Source: Phycisphaera sp.
GTDB taxonomy: Bacteria > Planctomycetota > Phycisphaerae > Phycisphaerales > SM1A02
Assembly (NCBI GenBank): GCA_016124975.1
Contig: WGMP01000031.1
Location: 1-64,000 of the forward strand
DNA: 64,000 nucleotides
Reading direction: 5' to 3'
The notes beneath the pieces are model-generated. The model was not told the origin of the DNA. It worked only from the letters and a program-made list of their open reading frames with translations, and searched no databases. Below, piece by piece: positions 2,674-55,533 of the stretch (positions within the stretch are counted from its first letter, which is position 1; every line of letters starts with the position of its first letter). The position numbers and the translations under genes are program-made.

Positions 2674-3276
2674 ATGCTTGCACGAACCCTGCGCTCCACC
2701 GCGCTTCTCGCCGCGGCCTCGTCGATGGCCCTCCTGCTGTCGGCGTGCCAGAAGCCCACGCGCGCCCAGTACGACGCCACGCACGGCTGGACGGTCTACG
2801 GCAACCTCGTCGAGACCGCCCGCGGGGTCCACCCCGAGATCGTCGCGTCCGATGTTCCCGAGTGGGCCGGCATCCCGAAGCGGATCGTCCTGAGCGGCAC
2901 GGTGGCCGATGTCTGCCGCACCATGGGCTGCTGGCTCGAGATCGAGGACGAAACCGGCACCCGCGCGATGGTGATGAATCTGAACCACGCGTTCTTCATT
3001 CCTCGCAACGCACGCGGACGCAATGTCCACGCCATCGGCTGGGTGGTCGAGGAAGAGCACTCGGTCGACATGCTGAAGCATCTCGCGATGGACGCAGGCA
3101 AGTCGCAGGCGGAGATCGACGCGATCTCGGAGCCCGCGAAGCGCTTCATCTTCATCGCGGAGTCGGTCATCCTGCCTCCTGGCGGCCTCGAGAAGCCCGT
3201 CGAGCTTCTTCCCGCCGAAGAAGAGCTCCCCGCGGTCGACACGGCCATGACGCCCGCCGCGGAGCCGGCGAAGTGA
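2674..3276 (+). CDS. DUF4920-like lipoprotein
   Basis: Exported lipoprotein of 200 residues with a signal peptide and lipobox LLSAC (Cys near residue 25). The mature part holds VYGNLVE, then IVLSGTVADVCRTMGCWLEI, the GxVxxVCxxxGCW signature of DUF4920-type domains with two conserved Cys, and later NVHAIGWVVEEE. A Pro/Glu/Ala-rich tail closes the protein. The function of the family is not known to me; the paired Cys suggests metal or redox chemistry outside the cytoplasm. The stop overlaps the GTG start of dihydroorotase (GTGA), so translation is probably coupled. Confidence 0.8.
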   Translation: MLARTLRSTALLAAASSMALLLSACQKPTRAQYDATHGWTVYGNLVETARGVHPEIVASDVPEWAGIPKRIVLSGTVADVCRTMGCWLEIEDETGTRAMVMNLNHAFFIPRNARGRNVHAIGWVVEEEHSVDMLKHLAMDAGKSQAEIDAISEPAKRFIFIAESVILPPGGLEKPVELLPAEEELPAVDTAMTPAAEPAK

Positions 3277-4598
3277 GCCGCGGATCGATCCTCTTCAGGC
3301 AGGGTCGCATCCTCGATGCGGCGCAGTCCATCGACGCGGAAGGCGACCTTCTCGTCGTCGACGGGCGCGTGGCGAAGATCGCGCCGGGCAGGCGGATCGA
3401 CGCACCAGAAGGCGCGCGCGTCGTCGACTGCGGCGGCATGTTCGTCGCCCCGGGCCTCATCGATCCGCATGTCCACCTGCGCGAACCAGGCGGCGAGGCC
3501 AAGGAGACGGTGAAGACGGGCACCGCGTCGGCGGTCGCGGGCGGGTTCACCACCGTCTGCTGCATGCCGAACACGAATCCCGCCATCGACACGGTCACCA
3601 CCGTGCGCTATGTGCTGCAGGCGGCGCGCGAGGCCGCGAGCGCGCGGGTATTCGTGGTGGCGGCCGCGACGGTCGGCCGCAAGGGCGAGCAGCTCGCCCC
3701 GATGCACGCGATGCGCGACGCGGGCGCCGTGGCGTTCTCCGACGACGGCGAGTGCATCATGAACCCCGCGATGATGCGGCGCGTGCTCGAGGTGTGCGCG
3801 TCGCTCGGCAAGACCTTCATGCAGCACTGCCAGGACCATGTCCTGAGCGAGGGCGGCGTGATGAACGAGGGCGCCGTCGCCACGCGCCTTGGGCTTCTCC
3901 CGTGGCCGCGCGAGGCGGAGGAGATCATCGTCGAGCGCGATGTGCGGCTGAACCGCGGAATCGGCGCGCACTACCACGCGCAGCACCTCTCCTCGGGCGG
4001 CAGCGCTGCGATCTTGCGGCGCGCGCGCGCCGAGGGAATCCGCTGCTCGGGCGAGGCGAGCCCGCACCACCTCCTGCTCACCGACGAGGCATGCGAAGGC
4101 TACGACACGCAGGCGAAGATGAATCCCCCGCTGCGCACGCGTCGCGACATCGCCGAACTGAAGGCGGCGATCGCCGACGGCACGATCGATGTCCTCGCCA
4201 CCGACCACGCACCGCACACCGCGGCCGAGAAGGCGCGCGACTTCGCGAGCGCGCCCTTCGGCATCATCGGGCTCGATTGCGCGCTGCCGCTCTACGCGAA
4301 GGCGCTGGTCGACGACGGCGTGATCGGCTGGCCGCGCATGATCGAGCTGATGACGCGGACGCCCGCGAAGCTGTGCGGCCTCGACGCGCACGGGCTCGGC
4401 TCGCTCGCAGAGGGTTCGCCCGCCGATGTGACCGTGATCGACCCGAACCTCGAGTGGACGATTCAGGCGTCGCAGTTCGCCTCGAAGAGCCGCAACTGCC
4501 CGTTCGACGGCTGGAGCGTGCGGGGCCGCGCGGTCATGACCGTGATCGCGGGGCGGGTACACCTCGACCGACATGCTGAACTCTGCGCGCAGCGCTGA
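3273..4598 (+). CDS. pyrC: Dihydroorotase
   Basis: Catalyses reversible cyclisation of N-carbamoyl-aspartate to dihydroorotate, the third step of pyrimidine synthesis, in the cytoplasm. The 441-residue amidohydrolase has the metal-binding HxH in DPHVHLREPGG (residues 64-74), the substrate-binding CMPNTNP, further metal-site histidines in the MQHCQDH and HYHAQHLS regions, and the late metal-ligand motif ATDHAPH. This pattern fits the longer class I enzymes found with separate aspartate transcarbamoylase. GTG at 3273 overlaps the preceding stop by 4 nt and gives the normal family N-terminus. Other pyr genes are not in the window. A different cyclic amidohydrolase (hydantoinase type) is less likely because of the HLREPG motif. 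Confidence 0.93.
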   Translation: MSRGSILFRQGRILDAAQSIDAEGDLLVVDGRVAKIAPGRRIDAPEGARVVDCGGMFVAPGLIDPHVHLREPGGEAKETVKTGTASAVAGGFTTVCCMPNTNPAIDTVTTVRYVLQAAREAASARVFVVAAATVGRKGEQLAPMHAMRDAGAVAFSDDGECIMNPAMMRRVLEVCASLGKTFMQHCQDHVLSEGGVMNEGAVATRLGLLPWPREAEEIIVERDVRLNRGIGAHYHAQHLSSGGSAAILRRARAEGIRCSGEASPHHLLLTDEACEGYDTQAKMNPPLRTRRDIAELKAAIADGTIDVLATDHAPHTAAEKARDFASAPFGIIGLDCALPLYAKALVDDGVIGWPRMIELMTRTPAKLCGLDAHGLGSLAEGSPADVTVIDPNLEWTIQASQFASKSRNCPFDGWSVRGRAVMTVIAGRVHLDRHAELCAQR

Positions 4599-43556: not shown

Positions 43557-45017
43557 TCAGTCCTTCCCGAGCGCCCCGCTCGCGTCGCGCTTCAGCTGGC
43601 GCCCCGCGCGGTCGATGGCGATCTGCTCGCTGTTCGGCGCGAAGAACGAGCCAGACCCTTCGGCCGCCTGCTGCGCGCGCTTGCGGTTGATCTCGGCGTT
43701 GCGGCGCGACTGCATGATCTCGCCCGAGCTTGTGAGCCGCAGCGAGATCATGCCAAGCGAATTCGGGCCCGCGTAGATCTCGGATTGCGGGTTCTCGAGC
43801 ACCTCGCGCACGGCGTCAAGCCAGAGCTGGCGGACGACCTGCGAGCCCGGCTCGCGGAAGCTCGGCCAGAGGCCTTCGAGGCGGCGAAGTTCGCGCTCGA
43901 GTTCCGCGCGCAGCGCGGCCTCCGAAGCCTTCGCACGCGCGACGATCGCGGCCACCTCGCCGCCGACATCGTCCGCCTCCATGCGCTTGCCGAGTTCGAT
44001 GAGCGTGCTCTCCGCGTCCTCGGTGCGGTTGGCGCCGAGCTCCTCCTCATAGCGGCGGATCAGGGCGAGCAGCTCCTCATGGACATCCCCGCCCGCGACC
44101 TGCGTCAGCGAGGTCCTCGCCTCGCCGCTCGCCTTCTCGACGATCGCCTTCCCGTTCTCGCGCGCCGTCTGGACATCGCGGTAGCGGTTCTGGATCGCAA
44201 GCGGCGCCATGCGACGACGGGCGGACACGCCCGCGAGCTCGATGCCGACATCGAGCCTGTCGAGCGTCCGCTGCGCGCGCTCTGCGATCGCAGGCCCGAG
44301 CAGGTCGCGCGTCGTGTCGATGATCTCGGCAAGCGTCAGCGTGCTCGCGGCCTCGACCGCGGCCTGGCGCACGGCGGCGCGCACGATCACCTCGGCGTTG
44401 CGCGGATCGGTGGCGCGGAGAAGCCGCACGGCGTCGACCACGTCGTAGCTGAACTCGAGTTCGGCGTGGGCGATGTCGCCCTCGACGGTCAAGAGCGACC
44501 CGTCTCCGATGCCGACGGGCCCGGGCTTGAGGCCGAAGTCGGCCGCAGCCGTATCGATCTGCTCCTCAAGCGTCTTCTCGCGCTGATCGCCCTGGTTGCG
44601 CCGGCGCGGCCAGAAGTCGTCGGACATGACCACGGTCTTCCGGCTCTGCTCGAACACGACGAGGTCGCCGATCGGGTACGGCCAGAACGGCTGCAGGCCC
44701 GGCGTCAACTGTTCCTCTCCCTCGGCTCCTGCGATGGCACCGAAGAGGGTCTTCACGCCCGTATCGCCTTCCTTCACAGAGCGGAAGCCCGAGACGAGGA
44801 ACACCGCCACGAGCGCGACGATGCCGAGCTGGAGAATGCGGTACGAGAGCTTGAGCGCGTCGCCGAGCGAGCTCGTCGCGGGGTCGAGCGCCTCGCGCAG
44901 CGACTCCTCGCCGCCTGAGCCCACGTCGAAGCGGGCGCTGGCGGCGCGGCGCGGCGCCTCCTGCGGGAATCCAGCCTGTTCGTCGCGAGGCGACGGAGCG
45001 TTTGGATCGGCGCTCAT
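43557..45017 (-). CDS. SPFH-domain protein (HflK-like, divergent)
   Basis: A 486-residue protein with an acidic N-terminus, a membrane helix (residues about 61-79, LQLGIVALVAVFLVSGF), and an SPFH/prohibitin-type domain. GLQPFWPYPIGDLVVFEQ resembles the HflK signature. A helical region with coiled-coil character follows (about 230-420). SPFH proteins form ring-like membrane scaffolds that restrain proteases such as FtsH. It overlaps the preceding HflC-like gene (ATGA), so the pair is coupled. The normal HflK is shorter and better conserved. Confidence 0.8.
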   Translation of the reverse strand: MSADPNAPSPRDEQAGFPQEAPRRAASARFDVGSGGEESLREALDPATSSLGDALKLSYRILQLGIVALVAVFLVSGFRSVKEGDTGVKTLFGAIAGAEGEEQLTPGLQPFWPYPIGDLVVFEQSRKTVVMSDDFWPRRRNQGDQREKTLEEQIDTAAADFGLKPGPVGIGDGSLLTVEGDIAHAELEFSYDVVDAVRLLRATDPRNAEVIVRAAVRQAAVEAASTLTLAEIIDTTRDLLGPAIAERAQRTLDRLDVGIELAGVSARRRMAPLAIQNRYRDVQTARENGKAIVEKASGEARTSLTQVAGGDVHEELLALIRRYEEELGANRTEDAESTLIELGKRMEADDVGGEVAAIVARAKASEAALRAELERELRRLEGLWPSFREPGSQVVRQLWLDAVREVLENPQSEIYAGPNSLGMISLRLTSSGEIMQSRRNAEINRKRAQQAAEGSGSFFAPNSEQIAIDRAGRQLKRDASGALGKD

Positions 45018-45991
45018 CGGCCGCCCTCCTCCGTGGCGCCCTCGGCCGCGCCCGCGGAAACCGTCGACTTGGCGGCGGCCTCCTCGGCGGGCTGCGGAAC
45101 GCCGCGCGCGTCGACCGCGGCGCCGAAGTCAAGGAGATGGAACGGCGCGCGCGTGGTGTCGCCGATGAAGGTGGTCGATCCGCGCAGGCCCGCCCGCATC
45201 GCGTCGAGCCATGCGAGGAAGGTCGCGAGCTCCGAGTACTGCTTCATGCGCTCGTAGTAGGCGGTCGCCTCCTCGCTGCCGCGGCCCTCGATGCGCGATG
45301 CCCACTGGTTCGCGAAGGCGACGATGGTGTCCGACTGGCTCTTGGCCTGGCTGCGGAGCGCCTCCGCGGCCGAGTTGGCCTTGGCGTTCTCGAGCTTGGC
45401 GAGCGTGTTCTGGACCTCGCTCATGCGCGAGAGGACACTGACGGTCGTCTTCTGCGGGAGCACGATCTGCGAGAGACCGACCGCGACGGGCTCGACGCCC
45501 ACCTTCTGGGCACCCGCGACGCCCGCGAGGATCGCCTTCTCCGCGTCCTCGAGCTTGGCCTTCGGGCCGACGAGATCCTCGAAGCGGAATCCGCCGACCG
45601 CCTTCACGGCGCCTGCGAGCGTCTGCTCGAGATCGGAGTTCGCGCTCTCGAGCGAACCTCCGTAGCTCACGAAGAAGTCCTGCGCCTCCTTGTCCGAGTC
45701 CTTCACCTTCCAGAAGAGGTAGGCGCGCACGACGACCTGCAGGCCGTCGCTTGTCTGGACGGTCTGCAGCGGACTCTCAGCGAACTGAAGGCGGCGGTCG
45801 ATCTTCGTGACCGAGTCGATGAAGAACGGGAACTTGAAGTGAAGTCCCGCCTCGCGCTCGACGCCCGCGGGGACGCCGAAGCGCGTGCGGATCGCAAACT
45901 CGTGGAAGTTGACCGTGTAGGTCGTGCTGTAGAGGACAAGCACGAGGACGATCGCGATTCCGAGGGCAAAGGCTGATGTACGCTTGTTCAT
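45014..45991 (-). CDS. SPFH-domain protein (HflC-like)
   Basis: A 325-residue protein with an N-terminal membrane helix (MNKRTSAFALGIAIVLVLVL) and SPFH domain: TVNFHEFAIRTRFG, GLHFKFPFFIDSVTKIDRR and VRAYLFWKVKD follow the HflC pattern. The C-terminal half has an Ala/Gln-rich helix (about 190-260). The start is preceded by GGAAG. It is the most typical of three SPFH genes in a row; HflK/HflC together regulate FtsH and shape membrane domains. FtsH itself is not in the window. Confidence 0.88.
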   Translation of the reverse strand: MNKRTSAFALGIAIVLVLVLYSTTYTVNFHEFAIRTRFGVPAGVEREAGLHFKFPFFIDSVTKIDRRLQFAESPLQTVQTSDGLQVVVRAYLFWKVKDSDKEAQDFFVSYGGSLESANSDLEQTLAGAVKAVGGFRFEDLVGPKAKLEDAEKAILAGVAGAQKVGVEPVAVGLSQIVLPQKTTVSVLSRMSEVQNTLAKLENAKANSAAEALRSQAKSQSDTIVAFANQWASRIEGRGSEEATAYYERMKQYSELATFLAWLDAMRAGLRGSTTFIGDTTRAPFHLLDFGAAVDARGVPQPAEEAAAKSTVSAGAAEGATEEGGR

Positions 45992-46074
45992 GGCTATCTT
46001 CCGTCTGTCGGCGCGTTGCCGGTTCGTGTCGTTGGTTCGGTGTTCCCGATCGATCCTCGCGAACGCCCCCGCGT

Positions 46075-48297
46075 TCACTCTTCCTTGGTCTCGAGGTAGT
46101 CGCCGATGTTGAGGCCCGTCGTCGGCTCCTGCATCTCGATGTCGACGCTGATGCGCTCGTTGTCGGGAAGCAGGATGTACTTGACGCGCACGAGCGAAAG
46201 GGCCTCGCCGAGCGCCTGCATGGTCTTTCGGGTCCTGTAGAGCTCGGGGTCGACGTTCCACGCGGCGCTCTGCCCAAGCACCTCCTGCGCGATCGTCTGC
46301 GCGTCCATGAGCGTGTTCCAGCGGTTGGCGCGGGCGCCCGAGATCACGCTCGCGACCTGCGCGCGCGACTCGATGACCATCTGCTCGAGACGGGCCTGCA
46401 GCGCAGCGACGCGGCCGGCGAGCTCGGCATCGGACTCGGCGCCGCCCTTAGCGGAGAGCTCGCGCTCGAGCGCGGACAGCTCGCCGATGCCGCGCACGAT
46501 CTCCTCGGCGCGCACGGGGTCGCCCACGAGCATGCTGAGCGCGGTCGACACCGTGCTCTGCTCGGCCTCGAGCTGGCGACGGCTGTTCTGGCGTGCGATC
46601 GAGAGTTCCTCGAACTTGCCGCCCTCCGTCCCGGGCGGGCGGAGCCTCGGCACGCTGACGCCGACGACCTCGACGCCGCACTCGGCTGCGTCGAAGGCGG
46701 CCTGGATGCGGCGCGCGAGCACGTCGACGAAGGGCGCGTCGACGGGCGGCGACAGCACCTCGTCGAGCGAACGCGTGCTCATCACGCGGGTGACCTCGCG
46801 CATGGCGATCGCCTTCAGCGCGCGCTCGCGCATGTCGCTCTGATCGCGGCGCGAACGAGCGTCGTTCGAGAAGCCGAGATAGCGCGGAAGCGCACCGTCG
46901 CGCACGCGGTACTGGAGCACGATGTCGGCCTCGACGAGGGCGAACTGGTCGGTCGCCTGCTGCTCCGCGGCACTCGCACCGAGCATCGAGCCGAGCGCAC
47001 GCGGCGCCTCCGACAGGAGACTCGAGGAAGAGGAGGAGGAGGAACCCACCGCCGAACGCGCGCTGGCTCCGACGAGGAACAGGTTCGTGTTCGTGCTGAC
47101 CTCGATGTTCTCGCCGCCCCAGACCACGACATCGTCCTTGGTCACGGGCGTGACGACGCCGAGCGGCAGGTCGCGCACCCTGTTCACATCCTCGACGATG
47201 GCCTCGTCGATCGGCCACGGCATCTTGGCCATCGGGCCGCCCTGGTAGACATCGCCGACGACCTTGCCGAAGCGCAGGCGCAGCGCCTGCTCCTGCGGCT
47301 GCACGACCACAAGCGTCGTGAGCGCGAGGACGACCACGGCACCGACGCTGAGGAGGCGCACGAAGTTCCGCAGCAGGAGCTGATAGCCCCAGGAGCTCGT
47401 GATGTCGAAGCCGAACTGGTAGTTCACGGCCTCGTTGATCGAGCGCACGATCGAGTCGGGCGCGGCGAGCAGGCTGAGGATGCGCGAATCGAACGCAGGA
47501 CGAGGCACCTCGCCCGGGCGGCGCGGGCGGTAGAGGTTGAGCAGGAAGTTGAGGACGGTCTCGGCCGCGACCGCGATCATGAAGACCGCGAGGCCCCACG
47601 CGACGCCGCGCAGCACCGTGTCGGTCTTGGCGGGGTCTTCCTCGAGCATGCGGAAGACCGTGCCGACGCCGATCGCAGCCGCCACGAGCGCGTTGCCGAC
47701 CATGACCGCAGCACCGCCGCGCAGGTTCGCCCACGCCTTCTGAAGCGCCATGCCCGCGACGAAGCGCGAGAAGATGAAGCACACGAGCGCCGCGCCGAAC
47801 GCGACCGCGAGCTGCCAGCCAGGATGCGCCGTGACGGTGAAGTCGCCGTAGTCGGTTCCCGAGCGCTGGATCACGCCGAACCACCAGATCACGCCCCACG
47901 CGAACCCGACGAGCAGCGCCGCATAGGCGAGGCTCATCACGGGCATCAGCACGGAATGCATGAGCTCGAGCCGACGCCGCGCCACGCGCGCCTCGTCGGT
48001 GGCGAAGAGCCTGCCCTCATCGTCGACGCGCGGCCCCGCCTCGAACTCAAGCGCCTCGAGGCGCTCGAGCCTGTGCTGGTGGAACAGCAGCACGAGTCCG
48101 AGCCAGACGATGGTGCCCGCGAAGGCCCAGCTCGAGGCGATGACCGTGGCGGAGTCGCTCAGCGACGCGCCGTCGGCGCCCGCAGGCCCCGTCGTCTTGC
48201 CGAAGACGAGCAAGAGCAACGCGATCGCGATCTGGACGAAGAGCCCTGCGGCGGCGACGCCCGTGGCCCTCTGGTAGGCATGGTGATCGATGCGCAT
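46075..48297 (-). CDS. SPFH-domain protein fused to about seven membrane helices
   Basis: A 740-residue protein. The N-terminal 330 residues hold about seven hydrophobic segments (for example 10-33, 49-72, 112-142, 158-183, 226-253 and 307-333), which ordinary HflK lacks. The SPFH domain follows the last helix (VVQPQEQALRLRFGKVVGDV, PWPIDEAIVEDVNRVRDLPLG), interrupted by a Ser-rich insert (eight Ser near 445), and ends in coiled-coil and a tail EERISVDIEMQEP-like region. The PWPI and RDLPLG motifs match HflK. It is the first gene of the three-SPFH run, 83 nt before the HflC-like gene. An HflK-type core with added transmembrane domain suggests a lineage-specific scaffold. Confidence 0.85.
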   Translation of the reverse strand: MRIDHHAYQRATGVAAAGLFVQIAIALLLLVFGKTTGPAGADGASLSDSATVIASSWAFAGTIVWLGLVLLFHQHRLERLEALEFEAGPRVDDEGRLFATDEARVARRRLELMHSVLMPVMSLAYAALLVGFAWGVIWWFGVIQRSGTDYGDFTVTAHPGWQLAVAFGAALVCFIFSRFVAGMALQKAWANLRGGAAVMVGNALVAAAIGVGTVFRMLEEDPAKTDTVLRGVAWGLAVFMIAVAAETVLNFLLNLYRPRRPGEVPRPAFDSRILSLLAAPDSIVRSINEAVNYQFGFDITSSWGYQLLLRNFVRLLSVGAVVVLALTTLVVVQPQEQALRLRFGKVVGDVYQGGPMAKMPWPIDEAIVEDVNRVRDLPLGVVTPVTKDDVVVWGGENIEVSTNTNLFLVGASARSAVGSSSSSSSSLLSEAPRALGSMLGASAAEQQATDQFALVEADIVLQYRVRDGALPRYLGFSNDARSRRDQSDMRERALKAIAMREVTRVMSTRSLDEVLSPPVDAPFVDVLARRIQAAFDAAECGVEVVGVSVPRLRPPGTEGGKFEELSIARQNSRRQLEAEQSTVSTALSMLVGDPVRAEEIVRGIGELSALERELSAKGGAESDAELAGRVAALQARLEQMVIESRAQVASVISGARANRWNTLMDAQTIAQEVLGQSAAWNVDPELYRTRKTMQALGEALSLVRVKYILLPDNERISVDIEMQEPTTGLNIGDYLETKEE

Positions 48298-50473: not shown

Positions 50474-51793
50474 TCAGCGCGTCGCCTTGCGCATCCGCGC
50501 CACCTCGCGCTTGAGGCGCTCGAGCTCCTCCTCAAGGATCTTCTTGTCGGGCGGCAGGTTCGGCGCCTCGTACACCATCACGGGGTAGCAGCGGTCATAC
50601 CACTTGAGGATCTCGGTGATGGCGCGGATCTGGTTGCCGGCCCGCACGATCGGATCGGAACCCGCGGGGTTCTGGTAGTCGTTCATGAGGAGCGGCTTGG
50701 CGGCCATCGCCTCCTTGATCGTGCGCTGCCACCGCGCGTGCAGTCGGCGCCCCTCGTCGCTCGCTTCGCGCCACTCCTTCAGCTGGAGCAGCTTGGCAAG
50801 TTCCTCGACCGTGTCGGCCGTGCCGTCAGAGAACTTGGAGTGCTCCGCGTTCTCCGCGTTGAGCGTCAGGTTCTCAGTCGCGTCGGACAGGTCGTACTTG
50901 CCCTCCATGGTCGAGTACCAGGTGATGTTGCCGTTCTCATCGCGGTCGTAGCTGCACTCGATCGGATTCGTCACCATCGCCTGACCGACGACCGCGGGGC
51001 GTCCGCCCATGCGGCACACTTCGCCGACCTTCTCGAGCCATGCGGCGAGCTCTGCGCCTTGGATCGACTGGGTGCCGGCAAACATGGTGATGGCACCGAG
51101 CGCACCGACGCGCATGAAGTAGATCTCGTCGCAGTGGAGCGCGGTGAACGCGCCCGCGGAGATCGCCTTCTTGATCCACGCGACCACGCGGTGGCGCTTT
51201 TTCAGATCCTTGATCGTCTCGTGGATCTTGTCGCCCTCGATCACGAGGCCGCCGGGCGAGTCGATGAGGAGGACAATGATCTGGCCGGGGCCGTACTTGT
51301 CTGCGTACTTGCCGATCTCCTCGATCTCGTCGTGGCGGGCGCCGATGCCGACGGTGCCCTCCCACGGGAGGACGATGATGTTCGGAACCTTCTTGTCCTC
51401 GGCCGTGGCGGCGCTCGCGCCACCCGCAGCCGTGGAACCCGTGGCGGCGCCCGCACCAGGCGCCGTCGCACCGGCGGCGGCCGTCTTGGCGTCGATCGTC
51501 TCGAGCTTCTTCAGGTCGAAGTTCACGATCGTGCGGCGGACGGCGCGTCCACCCTCATCGATCTCGATCACGATGAGCGACTTGTCGATGCGCACCACCG
51601 TGCCTTCGATGGTCACCTCGCGGTTGCCCTGCGTGTAGGTCGCGCGGACCTGCGCGCCTACCTCGCCGCGCCACACGGCGCCGTTCGGCAGCTTCACATC
51701 GGCTGCGAAGGCGGGAAGTGAAGCACCGAAGGCAAGCGCGAGCGCAAGGGTCGCGCTGGCCGCGGTTCGGACGAGCGATCGTGTCTTGTTCAT
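50474..51793 (-). CDS. Secreted ClpP-class serine protease (NfeD/SppA-like), active-site intact
   Basis: A 439-residue exported protein. The signal peptide ends near residue 31. A small beta domain (about 34-100) is followed by an Ala/Gly linker and a ClpP-fold domain (about 138-280). The oxyanion-type motif IDSPGG is at 177-182, the putative nucleophile Ser212 is in ISAGAF, and Lys255 in AWLEKVGE is a candidate base, the arrangement in NfeD/SppA-type Ser-Lys proteases. A helical C-terminal part shares SDGTADT and other lines with the next gene. GGAG lies upstream of ATG 51793. Periplasmic proteolysis of membrane proteins is the likely role; specificity unknown. Confidence 0.8.
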   Translation of the reverse strand: MNKTRSLVRTAASATLALALAFGASLPAFAADVKLPNGAVWRGEVGAQVRATYTQGNREVTIEGTVVRIDKSLIVIEIDEGGRAVRRTIVNFDLKKLETIDAKTAAAGATAPGAGAATGSTAAGGASAATAEDKKVPNIIVLPWEGTVGIGARHDEIEEIGKYADKYGPGQIIVLLIDSPGGLVIEGDKIHETIKDLKKRHRVVAWIKKAISAGAFTALHCDEIYFMRVGALGAITMFAGTQSIQGAELAAWLEKVGEVCRMGGRPAVVGQAMVTNPIECSYDRDENGNITWYSTMEGKYDLSDATENLTLNAENAEHSKFSDGTADTVEELAKLLQLKEWREASDEGRRLHARWQRTIKEAMAAKPLLMNDYQNPAGSDPIVRAGNQIRAITEILKWYDRCYPVMVYEAPNLPPDKKILEEELERLKREVARMRKATR

Positions 51794-51866
51794 GGTTCGA
51801 ACTCCGTCTCGGTCAGTCAGGTCTTGGCCATCGCCTCGCGAAGCCTCGACCACATGTCGTGCACGC

Positions 51867-51951
51867 AATCCTGGTGGGCTTTCAATCCTGGTGGGCTTCC
51901 AATCCTGGTGGGCTTCCAATCCTGGTGGGCTTCCAATCCTGGTGGGCTTCG
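51867..51951. repeat. 17-bp tandem repeat, five units
   Basis: Unit AATCCTGGTGGGCTTCC starts at 51867, 51884, 51901, 51918 and 51935; the first and last have one mismatch. The array lies between the start of the intact ClpP-class gene (51793) and the stop of its paralogue (51997). Confidence 0.93.
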
Positions 51952-51996
51952 GACGCCGCCCGTGCGGTGCGGCTTCCCTCAGCTCGCGCGGGCCTC

Positions 51997-53220
51997 TCAG
52001 GTGCCGCGTCGTCCGCCCATGCCGCCGCCGCCGAGGCCCGGCCGACCCGAGCCGCCGCCGCCGCCGCCGTTGTTGCGGTTGCCGCGCTCTGCCTCGCGGA
52101 TGCGCTGGATGTCCTTCTTGATGTTGTCGATCTCGATCTCGATCGCGGTCTGGTTGATGCCGCGGCGACCGAGGCGCGCCTCGATCGCGGGGTACTGCTT
52201 CAGCGCAGCGAGCATTTTCTCGAGCACGGCGCGGCGCTTGCCGAGCCCGACCGTGCCCGGGTCGTCGATCTGCTCGAGGTCGGTCAGCCACTCCTGCACG
52301 CGCTCGAAGGCCTTGCGCCAGTCGTTGACGTACTGCTCGGCGAGCTTCGGGCCCGACTCGACCTGCGAGAACTCGCGGTAGCCGAGGAGGAACATCAGGT
52401 CGTCGAGCGTGTCGGCGGTTCCGTCGGAGAGGAGGACATCCTCCGCGAGCGTGGCGTCGAAGTTCGCGGTCGCGTCGCCGCTGCCGTCGACGATCCACAC
52501 GCCCGTCGTGTTCTCGAGCCACTCGACCTCACGGCCCTTGAATCGCACGGAGAGCTGCTTGTCGGGGAACATCATCGCGTCGCCGAGGACGAGGTTGTAG
52601 CCGCCCTGCTGCAGGATGCCCTTGCCGATGCCCGTCCAGGCCGTCTCCATCTTGCTCTTCACATCGGGGTCTTCCCAGCCCTGCGCCATGCTCGCCACCC
52701 GCGAGAGGCCCCAGAGGCGCGCGTCGCTCTTCATGTAGAGATCGGGCCAGCCGAGGGCGACCAGCGAGGCGAATCCGACCGAATCCTCGACCCACATGAT
52801 CTGCGGGATGTCGCGGAGATCCTCGTGGAGCCGCTTCACCATGTCGCGGTACTCCTCGATCGCGGGCATGCCGAACTCCTCGCGGTCGTCGTTGCGGAGG
52901 TAGTTGTTGCGGTCGATGTCGGCGCTCTTGAGGTGATAGACGATGATGTCTGGCTTCTGCTTCCTGATGTCCTCGACCATGATCTCGACGAGCTGCTTCG
53001 AGACATCGGTGCCCATCTGGCCCGACATCGGGAAGACATAGACCTTGGGCGACGCGTTGGTCGAGGGCAACTTCGCGTTCTGAGGCGCGGCGGGCGCAGG
53101 CGCCGCGATGGCGCTTGGCGCGGCCATGACCCCGGCGACGAGCGCCGTGAAGCCCGTGAGAACCCCGACCTGGACCGCGCGCGTGAGACCGACATTGATC
53201 GAGTGGCGAGCGTGACGCAT
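51997..53220 (-). CDS. Secreted ClpP-class paralogue with lost catalytic residues
   Basis: A 407-residue exported protein, paralogous to the preceding gene product: KPDIIVYHLKSADI aligns with QIIVLLIDSPGG, MWVEDSVGFASLVAL with AWIKKAISAGAFTAL, and SDGTADTLDDLMFLL with SDGTADTVEELAKLL. In this alignment the nucleophile Ser212 is Gly149, Lys255 is Ile198 and IDSPGG is LKSADI (97-102), so no proteolysis is expected. The signal peptide runs to about residue 40. A Gly/Arg-rich tail (GGGGGG, GGMGGRR) ends the protein. ATG 53220 follows AGAGGTG. A pseudo-enzyme partner or scaffold of the intact protease is the simplest guess. Confidence 0.78.
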   Translation of the reverse strand: MRHARHSINVGLTRAVQVGVLTGFTALVAGVMAAPSAIAAPAPAAPQNAKLPSTNASPKVYVFPMSGQMGTDVSKQLVEIMVEDIRKQKPDIIVYHLKSADIDRNNYLRNDDREEFGMPAIEEYRDMVKRLHEDLRDIPQIMWVEDSVGFASLVALGWPDLYMKSDARLWGLSRVASMAQGWEDPDVKSKMETAWTGIGKGILQQGGYNLVLGDAMMFPDKQLSVRFKGREVEWLENTTGVWIVDGSGDATANFDATLAEDVLLSDGTADTLDDLMFLLGYREFSQVESGPKLAEQYVNDWRKAFERVQEWLTDLEQIDDPGTVGLGKRRAVLEKMLAALKQYPAIEARLGRRGINQTAIEIEIDNIKKDIQRIREAERGNRNNGGGGGGSGRPGLGGGGMGGRRGT

Positions 53221-53452: not shown

Positions 53453-54793
53453 TCAGGCTCCCCCGCCGCGACCGTCGCCTTCCGCCGCGGCGGTTGCCAC
53501 GAGCTGCAGCGCCTCCTCCGTGGAGCGCACGCGCCCCTCGAGCTGGGCGTCCATCGCGAGGTCGAGCCACCGCTTGAACCGCGGCCCGGGCCGATAGCCT
53601 GCCCTGACCAGCGTGTCGCCGTCGACGAGCGGCGGAGGAAGCGCCCTTGCGGGGAGTTCACGGTCGGCCTCCGCGGCGAGTGCGGCGCCGAGGCCTGGGT
53701 CCTCGGCCGCCACGAGCGCGAGCGCGGCGTCGAAGCCCGCACGGGCGATCAGGCGGGCGCGGAACGGGATCGACCCCGTCCTGAACGGCCCGAGCAGCGC
53801 CTCGCGGCAGTCGAGCGCAGACGCGAACGCGTCGGACTCGTGGTTCGAAAGGACGAGCCGCCTGCGCAGGCCCCGCTCCATCTCGGCGCGTGTGGCGGCG
53901 ACGGGCAGGGCCTCTGCCCCCTCGCCCGCGGCTCGATCGAGCCACCACGCCGCAAGGACGGTTGTCCATCCGCCTGCGGGAACCGCGGCACCGTGCGCGG
54001 AAAGCGCATCCACGCGCCGCCGTGACGCCATCGGCGCGCGCGACCCGAACACGGCGCCGTCGAGCCCGAGCGCCTCGATCAGCGCCACCGCACGGCCCCT
54101 GGCGTGGTGCGCGAGCATGCGCCGCAACTCGTCGCCGACGCGCTCGGGGCTGACCGACGCGAGTTCATCCGCGTGGGCTCGGATCGCCTCGGCGGTGCGC
54201 GGCTCGAGCTCGAAGGCGAGGCGCGCGGCGAAGCGCGGCGCACGCAGCATGCGAAGCCTGTCTTCGCGGATCCGCTCGTGCGGATCGCCGATCGCGCGCA
54301 GGAGGCGCGCGGCGATGTCCGCGCGACCCTCGACGAAGTCGACCACCTCGCCCGTGCGCGGATTCTCGAACAGTCCGTTCGCCGTGAAGTCTCGCCGCAG
54401 CGCGTCCTCGCGGGCCGTCGAATAGCGAACCTCCGACGGCCTGCGCCCATCGTGATAGGGACCGTCCTCGCGGAAAGTCGCGACCTCGAAGGAGTGCCCG
54501 CCGTGGCGCACGAGGACGACGCCAAACGCCTCGCCGACGCCGCGCGCCTTGGGGAAGATGCCGCGGATCTCGTCGGGGAGCGCCGCGGTCGCGATGTCGT
54601 AGTCCTTCGGCTCCGCGCCGAGCAGCCTGTCGCGCACGCAGCCGCCCGCGAAGTAGGTCTCGAAGCCTGCGTCGAGGATGCGGCCCGCCACGGCGCGCGC
54701 AGCGTCGGCGAGGGGAAGCCGCTCGCGTGGCTCTGCGCGCAGGGCGTCGCCGGCCGCCTCGCCCGACCCGTCGCGCGGCGCGTGGTCGTTCAC
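53453..54793 (-). CDS. cca: CCA tRNA nucleotidyltransferase / poly(A) polymerase family
   Basis: A 446-residue class II nucleotidyltransferase. The fold's nucleotide-binding motif GGCVRDRLLGAEPKDYDIAT (shown in two parts in the sequence near residues 45-64) carries the two Mg-binding Asp. RRDFTANGLFENP and RIREDRLRMLRAPRFAARL follow the CCA/PAP family. The two tRNA genes in the window lack encoded CCA, so such an enzyme is needed. The start is GTG, overlapping the plsC stop by GTGA. A poly(A) polymerase role cannot be excluded. Confidence 0.88.
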   Translation of the reverse strand: MNDHAPRDGSGEAAGDALRAEPRERLPLADAARAVAGRILDAGFETYFAGGCVRDRLLGAEPKDYDIATAALPDEIRGIFPKARGVGEAFGVVLVRHGGHSFEVATFREDGPYHDGRRPSEVRYSTAREDALRRDFTANGLFENPRTGEVVDFVEGRADIAARLLRAIGDPHERIREDRLRMLRAPRFAARLAFELEPRTAEAIRAHADELASVSPERVGDELRRMLAHHARGRAVALIEALGLDGAVFGSRAPMASRRRVDALSAHGAAVPAGGWTTVLAAWWLDRAAGEGAEALPVAATRAEMERGLRRRLVLSNHESDAFASALDCREALLGPFRTGSIPFRARLIARAGFDAALALVAAEDPGLGAALAAEADRELPARALPPPLVDGDTLVRAGYRPGPRFKRWLDLAMDAQLEGRVRSTEEALQLVATAAAEGDGRGGGA

Positions 54794-55533
54794 GCCACTT
54801 CCTCCGCCGTGGGGCGCGCCGCCGGGGCCGCGGGCGGCTCCGTTCCGCGCCAGCGCGCCAGTTCGACGCGCGCCTCGTGGTGCGCGCGGGACACGCCGTC
54901 CCACATGGCCGCGAGCGCCTCGTCGCCGCCCATCGCCGCGAGCGCCGCCCCGTCGAGCGGCTCGCCGCACGCGCAGACCACCCTCCCCGAGAAGCGTGGC
55001 AGCTTGCGCCCGCGCGGCCAGGCATCGAACGCGCCCTCGACTCCCATCGGAAGCACCGTCGGCTTCACCTTCTTCACGAGGAGAAGCACGCCGCGCTTGA
55101 ACTCGAGCATGTCCCCCGTCTCCGAGCGCGTGCCCTCGGGGTAGAGAATGACCACGCGGCCCGCCTCGAGCTCGGCGATCGCCGCCTTCATCGCCTCAAG
55201 GTCGCCGCCCGAGCGCTTGATCGGGCGCGCGCTGACGGAGCGGAGCACCCAGCCCCACGCTCCCACGAAGAGCGTGTCGCGCGCGAGCGCCGTGAACTGC
55301 CGCTCCCACACCGTGACGCCGTTGATCATCGGGTCGAGGAACGACTGGTGGTTCGAGATGACGAGGATCGCGCCCGTGCGCGGGATGCGCTCACGGTGGA
55401 TGCGGCGCAGGCCGTAGCAGATCTTGAGCGCGCTCCAGCAGAGGAAGGCGCAGAAGTCCCACCATGCGGTGCGCACGAACCCGCGGCCTGGAACGCGGCG
55501 GCGGAAGGCGAAGGGATTCGGGAACGGGCTCAC
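54790..55533 (-). CDS. plsC: 1-acyl-glycerol-3-phosphate acyltransferase (PlsC family)
   Basis: A 247-residue membrane-associated acyltransferase of phosphatidic acid synthesis. The catalytic HX4D motif is NHQSFLDP (near residue 63), with the glycerol-phosphate-binding YPEGTRS motif later. A hydrophobic N-terminal segment (WWDFCAFLCWSALKICYG) probably anchors it. The GTG start overlaps the cmk stop by GTGA, the common cmk-plsC arrangement. Confidence 0.88.
   Translation of the reverse strand: MSPFPNPFAFRRRVPGRGFVRTAWWDFCAFLCWSALKICYGLRRIHRERIPRTGAILVISNHQSFLDPMINGVTVWERQFTALARDTLFVGAWGWVLRSVSARPIKRSGGDLEAMKAAIAELEAGRVVILYPEGTRSETGDMLEFKRGVLLLVKKVKPTVLPMGVEGAFDAWPRGRKLPRFSGRVVCACGEPLDGAALAAMGGDEALAAMWDGVSRAHHEARVELARWRGTEPPAAPAARPTAEEVA

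Follow-up and report, generated by a model that had tools for sequence, protein, structure and literature searches.

In ClpP, a Ser-His-Asp triad lies within one subunit, which works with an AAA+ partner, and in ClpP/ClpR and ClpP1/ClpP2 paralogous subunits of the ClpP fold are assembled in mixed rings. E. coli SppA (protease IV, 67K type) is one polypeptide with a tandem repeat of two ClpP-fold units, the lysine unit first and the serine unit second, and Kim et al. are said to have found in 2008 that Lys209 and Ser409 form a dyad across these domains. B. subtilis SppA is an octamer in which residues of two neighbouring monomers build each active site, and its variant K199A is inactive (PMC7568657). 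For PH1510-N of Pyrococcus horikoshii, a member of the NfeD1b class (PF25145), PMC3795559 reports that the variants S97A and K138A are inactive, and that in the K138A dimer the two residues at position 138 lie very near each other. Here, we describe two adjacent genes, the upstream gene A and the downstream gene B, in a stretch of 64,000 nucleotides of Phycisphaera sp. (GenBank assembly GCA_016124975.1, contig WGMP01000031.1, positions 1 to 64,000; hereafter the window). Their products probably each provide one half of such a Ser-Lys dyad.

An earlier note on this DNA had interpreted the two genes as a tandem of secreted ClpP-class paralogues, consisting of an intact Ser-Lys protease (B) and a catalytically dead relative (A). 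The tandem as such was confirmed: both adjacent open reading frames (ORFs) lie on the minus strand, and a single-sequence search with either protein retrieves the other one in the same genome (E 7.4e-10 and 1.4e-9), at a low identity of 24% over residues 130-379 of A. The motif IDSPGG and Ser212 (in ISAGAF) are present in B, LKSADI and Gly149 stand at the matching places of A, and the Gly-rich tail of A was also found as described.

The division into an intact and a dead protein did not hold. To anchor the catalytic columns, a profile was built from 18 homologues that lie outside the A-B pairs and possess both residues. Only five columns of this profile are invariant (G108, G109, S138, G159 and K177), with the lysine 39 residues after the serine. 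The profile retrieves the three PH1510-N sequences of the PDB set (E 7.5e-28, 1.9e-26 and 6.6e-26); S138 aligns with Ser97 of PH1510, which is Ala in the S97A entry, and K177 with Lys138, which is Ala in the K138A entries. The serine column corresponds to Ser212 in B and to Gly149 in A, and the lysine column to Ala247 in B and to Lys190 in A. MAFFT, the profile-profile alignment with hhalign and the PH1510 profile with the mutant PDB entries agree on this placement, and the distance from Gly149 to Lys190 in A of the window (41 residues) equals that from Ser97 to Lys138 in PH1510. Lys255 of B, which had been taken for the catalytic lysine, was rejected; it belongs to the most variable positions of B (K in 14 of 46 homologues; conservation rank 417 of 449 among 100 rows), and the lysine column of PH1510 is position 247. 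Unlike PH1510-N and NfeD1b, which carry Ser and Lys on the same chain, B of the window has the serine without the lysine and A the lysine without the serine. Judged by these columns, neither label applies: B lacks an intact dyad and A is more than a dead copy. Each carries one half of a putative dyad, and the lysine missing in B would be supplied by A. Because the single mutants of PH1510-N are inactive, either half alone should, by analogy, be inactive as well.

The distribution was analysed in 61 genomes (the own genome and 60 relatives) and in samples comprising 396 genomes from the class, 149 from the phylum and 51 from a single family. All 78 genomes of the class sample with B at E ≤1e-60 also hold A at E ≤1e-30. 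Separate occurrence of the two paralogues in most genomes, which the earlier note had named as a refutation, was not observed. Two further genomes (G103 and G118) pass E 1e-30 with the A profile via homologues bearing both residues. Outside the class, the phylum sample yielded two weak matches (E 6.8e-20 and 1.7e-17). The 54 named contigs which were recovered stem from uncultured genomes, mostly labelled Planctomycetota, Phycisphaerales or Phycisphaerae. Both genes were found together in 97 loci, which belong to families f1 to f4 of a single order. In all of them A precedes B on the same strand, and the median distance between the A stop codon and the beginning of the B profile match is 61 nucleotides.

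All 97 pairs possess the lysine in A and the serine in B, and 92 of them are fully complementary; of the remaining five, K occurs in the B protein of two and Ser in the A protein of one, and the Ser column of A is absent from the last two (L121 and L167). Lys190 occurs in 99 of 99 A rows and is the sole invariant residue among 394 positions. At the Ser column of A, Gly (88 rows), Ala (5), Phe (2) and single Gln, Val or Asp residues were found and Ser only once, so the proposed loss of the serine applies to 98 of 99 rows. B shows the opposite state, with Ser in 100 of 100 rows and K at the Lys column in two of 100. Position 247 ranks 375 of 449 in conservation, i.e. it is drifting, and no invariant K or H exists in B. 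A second collection of 106 rows contained 53 new ones, of which one was too short to place and L338 is the B protein of a broken locus (G003). Gly and Lys were present in 25 of 25 new A rows; all 27 new B rows showed Ser, and three of them K at the Lys column.

Some rows had to be assigned individually. L074_5195 was assigned to A, and L077_5027 was treated as a third gene (B2). L248 had been scored as B, but has no adjoining A and possesses both residues, and was moved outside the pairs. L114_3367, which the script had counted as A, was removed, and its partner L114_4793 was excluded from the outside group. The loci L129 (broken), L267, L043, L244 and L022 (duplicates or a fragment) were skipped, rows below 150 residues (L127, L126 and L111) were dropped, and outside the pairs the columns of L173 and one L252 fragment were unreadable. 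L166 and L167 are two pairs from one genome. A alone was found in L126, L127, L173 and L178, and B alone in L119, L120 and L266; in L126, L127, L173 and L266 the genes lie at contig ends.

B matches PF25145 (NfeD1b_N) at 2.1e-18 and, weakly, the SDH and Clp proteases of Pfam, with a CLP_protease score (20.4 bits) barely above the cut-off of 20.2. It stays below the cut-offs of the NCBIfam clpP model (14.4 versus 308.6 bits) and of the SppA model TIGR00706 (40.8 versus 155.45 bits), the latter giving no match to A. For A, no Pfam or NCBIfam family was obtained below E 0.08, and the Pfam scan revealed no NfeD domain in either protein. A Ser-His-Asp triad is unsupported for B, since no His column is conserved in at least 80% of the B rows. 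With solved structures, the A profile alone gave mainly matches to the helical and Gly-rich end and PH1510 only at E 0.85. The AlphaFold model of A from the window (43-row alignment; predicted local distance difference test, pLDDT, 88.6; predicted template modelling score, pTM, 0.82) best matches PH1510-N (3bpp; Z 16.6, 186 residues, root-mean-square deviation, rmsd, 2.7). The B part of a joined A-B model, calculated for the same-genus homologue L094, matches PH1510-N (3viv) with Z 21.6 over 192 residues. By these models, both proteins have the ClpP-type fold of the PH1510-N/NfeD1b class.

In E. coli SppA, the lysine and the serine are divided in the same order as in A and B, and we therefore propose, with a probability of roughly 0.7, that A and B form an obligate heteromer, each supplying half of a single extracytoplasmic Ser-Lys protease of the PH1510-N/SppA type with its dyad in trans. 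The nucleophile (Ser212) would come from B, and so would the oxyanion loop, a role presumed for Gly181-Gly182 by analogy with ClpP. A would contribute the general base Lys190, which would activate Ser212 of B. The dyad would be assembled where A faces B, and neither protein would be active alone; the assembly is probably a pseudo-symmetric A:B dimer or a larger ring. The mirror site, formed by Gly149 of A and Ala247 of B, would be dead, and activity would be confined to where and when both proteins meet. The evidence from the sequences is strong, and from it we infer the binding of A to B, the proximity of Ser and Lys and the protease activity.

A dyad between domains or monomers, as in SppA, would be implied by the split of the residues. 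The sequence of E. coli K-12 SppA shows K at residue 209, within the first unit, and S at residue 409, within the second; by eye, a Q stands at the Ser place of the first unit. The joined A-B model (38 paired rows; pLDDT 81.5, pTM 0.72) spans both domains of E. coli SppA (3bf0_C; Z 13.7, 317 residues), although the fit is loose with an rmsd of 6.5. Several ClpP1/2 entries are also among the structure matches of this model, and its Foldseek rows have single-domain alignment lengths. Unlike E. coli SppA, A and B are encoded by two genes, their products are apparently exported separately, and by profile they are nearer to the PH1510 branch. B. subtilis SppA differs as a homo-oligomer with both residues on every chain. 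PH1510 shares with A and B the fold, the Ser and Lys columns and an SPGG-like motif, but combines both residues in one chain that is part of a longer membrane-bound protein, whereas in A and B they are split over two proteins, each with a signal-peptide-like start; neither an NfeD domain nor another membrane-like segment was found in them. ClpP/ClpR and ClpP1/ClpP2 likewise consist of paralogous ClpP-fold subunits, but keep the triad within one subunit and have the AAA+ partner. In its mode of operation, the pair resembles the deoxyhypusine synthase heterotetramer of trypanosomatids, where an impaired enzyme and a dead paralogue make up the active complex (PMC3663545); fold and reaction are unrelated.

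The extracytoplasmic location is inferred from the N-termini. Both window proteins start with a basic stretch and a hydrophobic run, which by inspection and in a hydrophobic-run test resemble signal peptides, and the hydropathy test gave no other membrane-like segment in either of them. A body stretch of 19 residues with a mean hydropathy ≥1.9 was present in none of 99 A rows and none of 70 B rows. Across the families, a signal-peptide-like start was detected in 48 of 99 A rows versus 68 of 70 B rows in one rough test and in 66 of 93 versus 41 of 43 in another, with uncurated start codons in both. The signal peptides claimed for both proteins are plausible for the two window proteins, but such starts were detected in only a part of the A family.

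A second adjacent pair with the same division of residues was found in four of the 51 genomes of family f6, all of genus g37 (G057, G398, G434 and G435); a fifth g37 genome (G436, 70% complete) gave no match. Its gene order is opposite to that of A and B, with the Ser half first and the Lys half second. The first gene has kept Ser, and its Lys column is occupied by D, P, G or G in the four genomes; the second gene has kept K, with F, F, A or A in place of Ser. In a tree calculated with these two trait columns removed, A (support 100/97) and B (99/95) each form a clade, and the eight f6 rows form a clade of their own (99/92) among homologues with both residues. The approximately unbiased (AU) test rejects a single clade of the Lys halves (p 0.00012) and of the Ser halves (p 0.00016). 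From the separate f6 clade and these rejections, it is most likely that the same division arose at least twice independently. Overall, we consider it likely that A and B represent an obligate two-gene secreted protease which arose at least two times within one order, in opposite gene orders, by complementary loss after duplication.

Among the homologues outside the pairs, 58 had both columns readable; 51 of them retain Ser as well as Lys, three have lost both, and four have kept Ser and lost Lys. Six homologues without Ser have no partner in the fetched stretch (L076, L118, L123 and the f6 rows L272, L275 and L276), and all six have also lost Lys; they require four changes on a quick tree, two of which are forced by well-supported branches. 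Hence, in this sample, a lysine without the serine is retained only beside a Ser-bearing neighbour or at a contig end.

Some loci carry additional or altered copies. L077 (5027-8862) harbours a triple of A, B and B2, in which the extra B copy has lost Ser (G/E) and the middle copy retains it. In L179, a third, very divergent homologue (S/E, 2997-4040) immediately follows the A-B pair. A Ser/Lys copy stands in tandem with a Ser/Glu copy in L255 (2165-4589), which is possibly an earlier stage of the same division. In L129 (7270-9852, genome G003), a single ORF of 861 amino acids (aa) continues from the C-terminal region of A into B, and no B signal peptide is evident. Its A half is disrupted and does not include the Lys region, and this is either a real fusion or an error of the draft assembly. 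A read-through from A into B in the same frame was rejected as a feature, since A and B share a frame in 39 of 97 pairs, close to the expected third.

Several observations weigh against the proposed heteromer. The B-like state occurs alone as well, as L082 and L265 keep Ser, have lost Lys and have no partner that was found; L179_2997 and L255_3399 are in the same state and adjoin other copies. Genome G172 holds A (8.2e-66) without B. K is present at the Lys column in five of 127 B rows (L007, L097, L319, L324 and L326), and one A protein (L199) has retained Ser. The residue counts are not independent, as A and B are one clade each, and the pattern amounts to about two origins followed by long conservation. 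With six divergent rows added, clade support drops to 64 (A) and 89 (B) in a quick tree. The loose fit to SppA and the signal-peptide-like start seen in only part of the A family have to be added.

A mixed assembly had been suggested after the model of ClpR and ClpP. The conserved adjacent pair in 97 of 97 loci leads us to expect a heteromer as well, but the division of roles known from ClpR and ClpP is not supported. In that picture, B would work as a protease by itself with a different base, and A would be a regulatory or structural pseudo-subunit. In its favour, Ser and GG are retained in every B row, the genes are adjacent, mixed ClpP rings exist, and in L082 and L265 Ser is present without Lys and no partner was found for them. 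We nevertheless regard this explanation as unlikely: B has no invariant K or H, its Lys255 is unconserved, and its conserved basic residues K198 (K in 67 and R in 27 of 100 rows), R200 (R 53, K 26) and R202 (R 91) are unlike a lysine base. Furthermore, a purely regulatory A gives no reason why the catalytic lysine should be its sole invariant residue.

It is equally doubtful, if not a shade more so, that the pair is a binding or scaffold complex in which neither protein is now a protease and Ser and Lys serve another purpose. The lack of a complete dyad on either chain in 92 of 97 pairs would agree with this, and AlphaFold shows the fold only. However, conservation is among the highest at precisely the catalytic Ser, with GG, and the catalytic Lys; these are split between partners in a division that arose twice, and Ser-less homologues without a found partner lose the Lys (6/6). 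Misaligned columns or plain decay of the copies, which the low identity between A and B might suggest, are very improbable, as three alignment methods and the mutant PDB entries concur, the rows of the second collection obey the rule, and drift would not have spared Lys190 as an invariant residue.

Table 1. Positions of genes A and B and of the relevant codons in the window. The domain layout of B is taken from the model of the L094 homologue.
Feature	Position	Strand	Remarks
Gene A	51997..53220	-	407 aa (P0002); stop at 51997-51999; lysine half: signal-peptide-like N-terminus, ClpP-fold domain, helical C-terminal part, Gly-rich tail
Gene B	50474..51793	-	439 aa (P0001); serine half: signal-peptide-like N-terminus, small beta-rich domain, Ala-rich linker, ClpP-fold domain (PF25145 NfeD1b_N), helical C-terminal part
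Lys190 codon of A	52651..52653	-	PH1510 Lys138 position; K in 99/99 A rows
Gly149 codon of A	52774..52776	-	PH1510 Ser97 position, Ser lost
Ser212 codon of B	51158..51160	-	PH1510 Ser97 position; S in 100/100 B rows
Gly181-Gly182 codons of B (SPGG)	51248..51253	-	presumed oxyanion loop; GG in 101/101 rows filed as B
Ala247 codon of B	51053..51055	-	PH1510 Lys138 position, Lys lost

Between A and B, five near-perfect copies of a 17-bp unit (CAATCCTGGTGGGCTTC) are located at 51866-51950. A 27-base piece of this repeat, with up to two mismatches, is confined to this region in the whole genome (four overlapping matches).

A pcnB-like gene of the poly(A) polymerase/tRNA nucleotidyltransferase family (53456-54796) adjoins the A-B pair in 30 of 32 loci of the order; there is no evident reason for this linkage. 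Two SPFH (Band_7) genes were detected at 45014-48297, the larger one encoding 740 aa with a long N-terminal part before the SPFH domain. HflK/HflC-like SPFH genes were rejected as a fixed partner, as they occur near the pair in only 10 of 32 loci (single-sequence search), beyond a gene on the opposite strand. PH1510 cleaves a stomatin, i.e. an SPFH protein (PMC3795559), and by analogy an SPFH protein is a conceivable substrate in genomes in which SPFH genes adjoin the pair; the linkage is not general. In PMC2636767, the names are reversed in comparison to PMC3795559, with PH1510 as the SPFH protein and PH1511 as the NfeD protease. The genome also contains a true ClpP gene tandem (contig C40, 4751-5921) and further homologues of the PF25145 family on contigs C7 and C26, so the A-B pair adds to the usual enzymes and does not replace them.

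The fold, the chemistry and dyads shared between domains or monomers (SppA) are known already. Two separately encoded products with one catalytic residue each, evolved twice, were not described in any title or opening part of an abstract among the open full-text matches listed, most subscription papers being outside this scope. If the proposal is true, annotation by a single catalytic motif miscalls both genes, B as an intact protease and A as unrelated or dead. The pair would then clearly exemplify, in nature, how complementary degeneration can lead to an obligate two-gene enzyme, seen twice, and with outside homologues possessing both residues still available for comparison.

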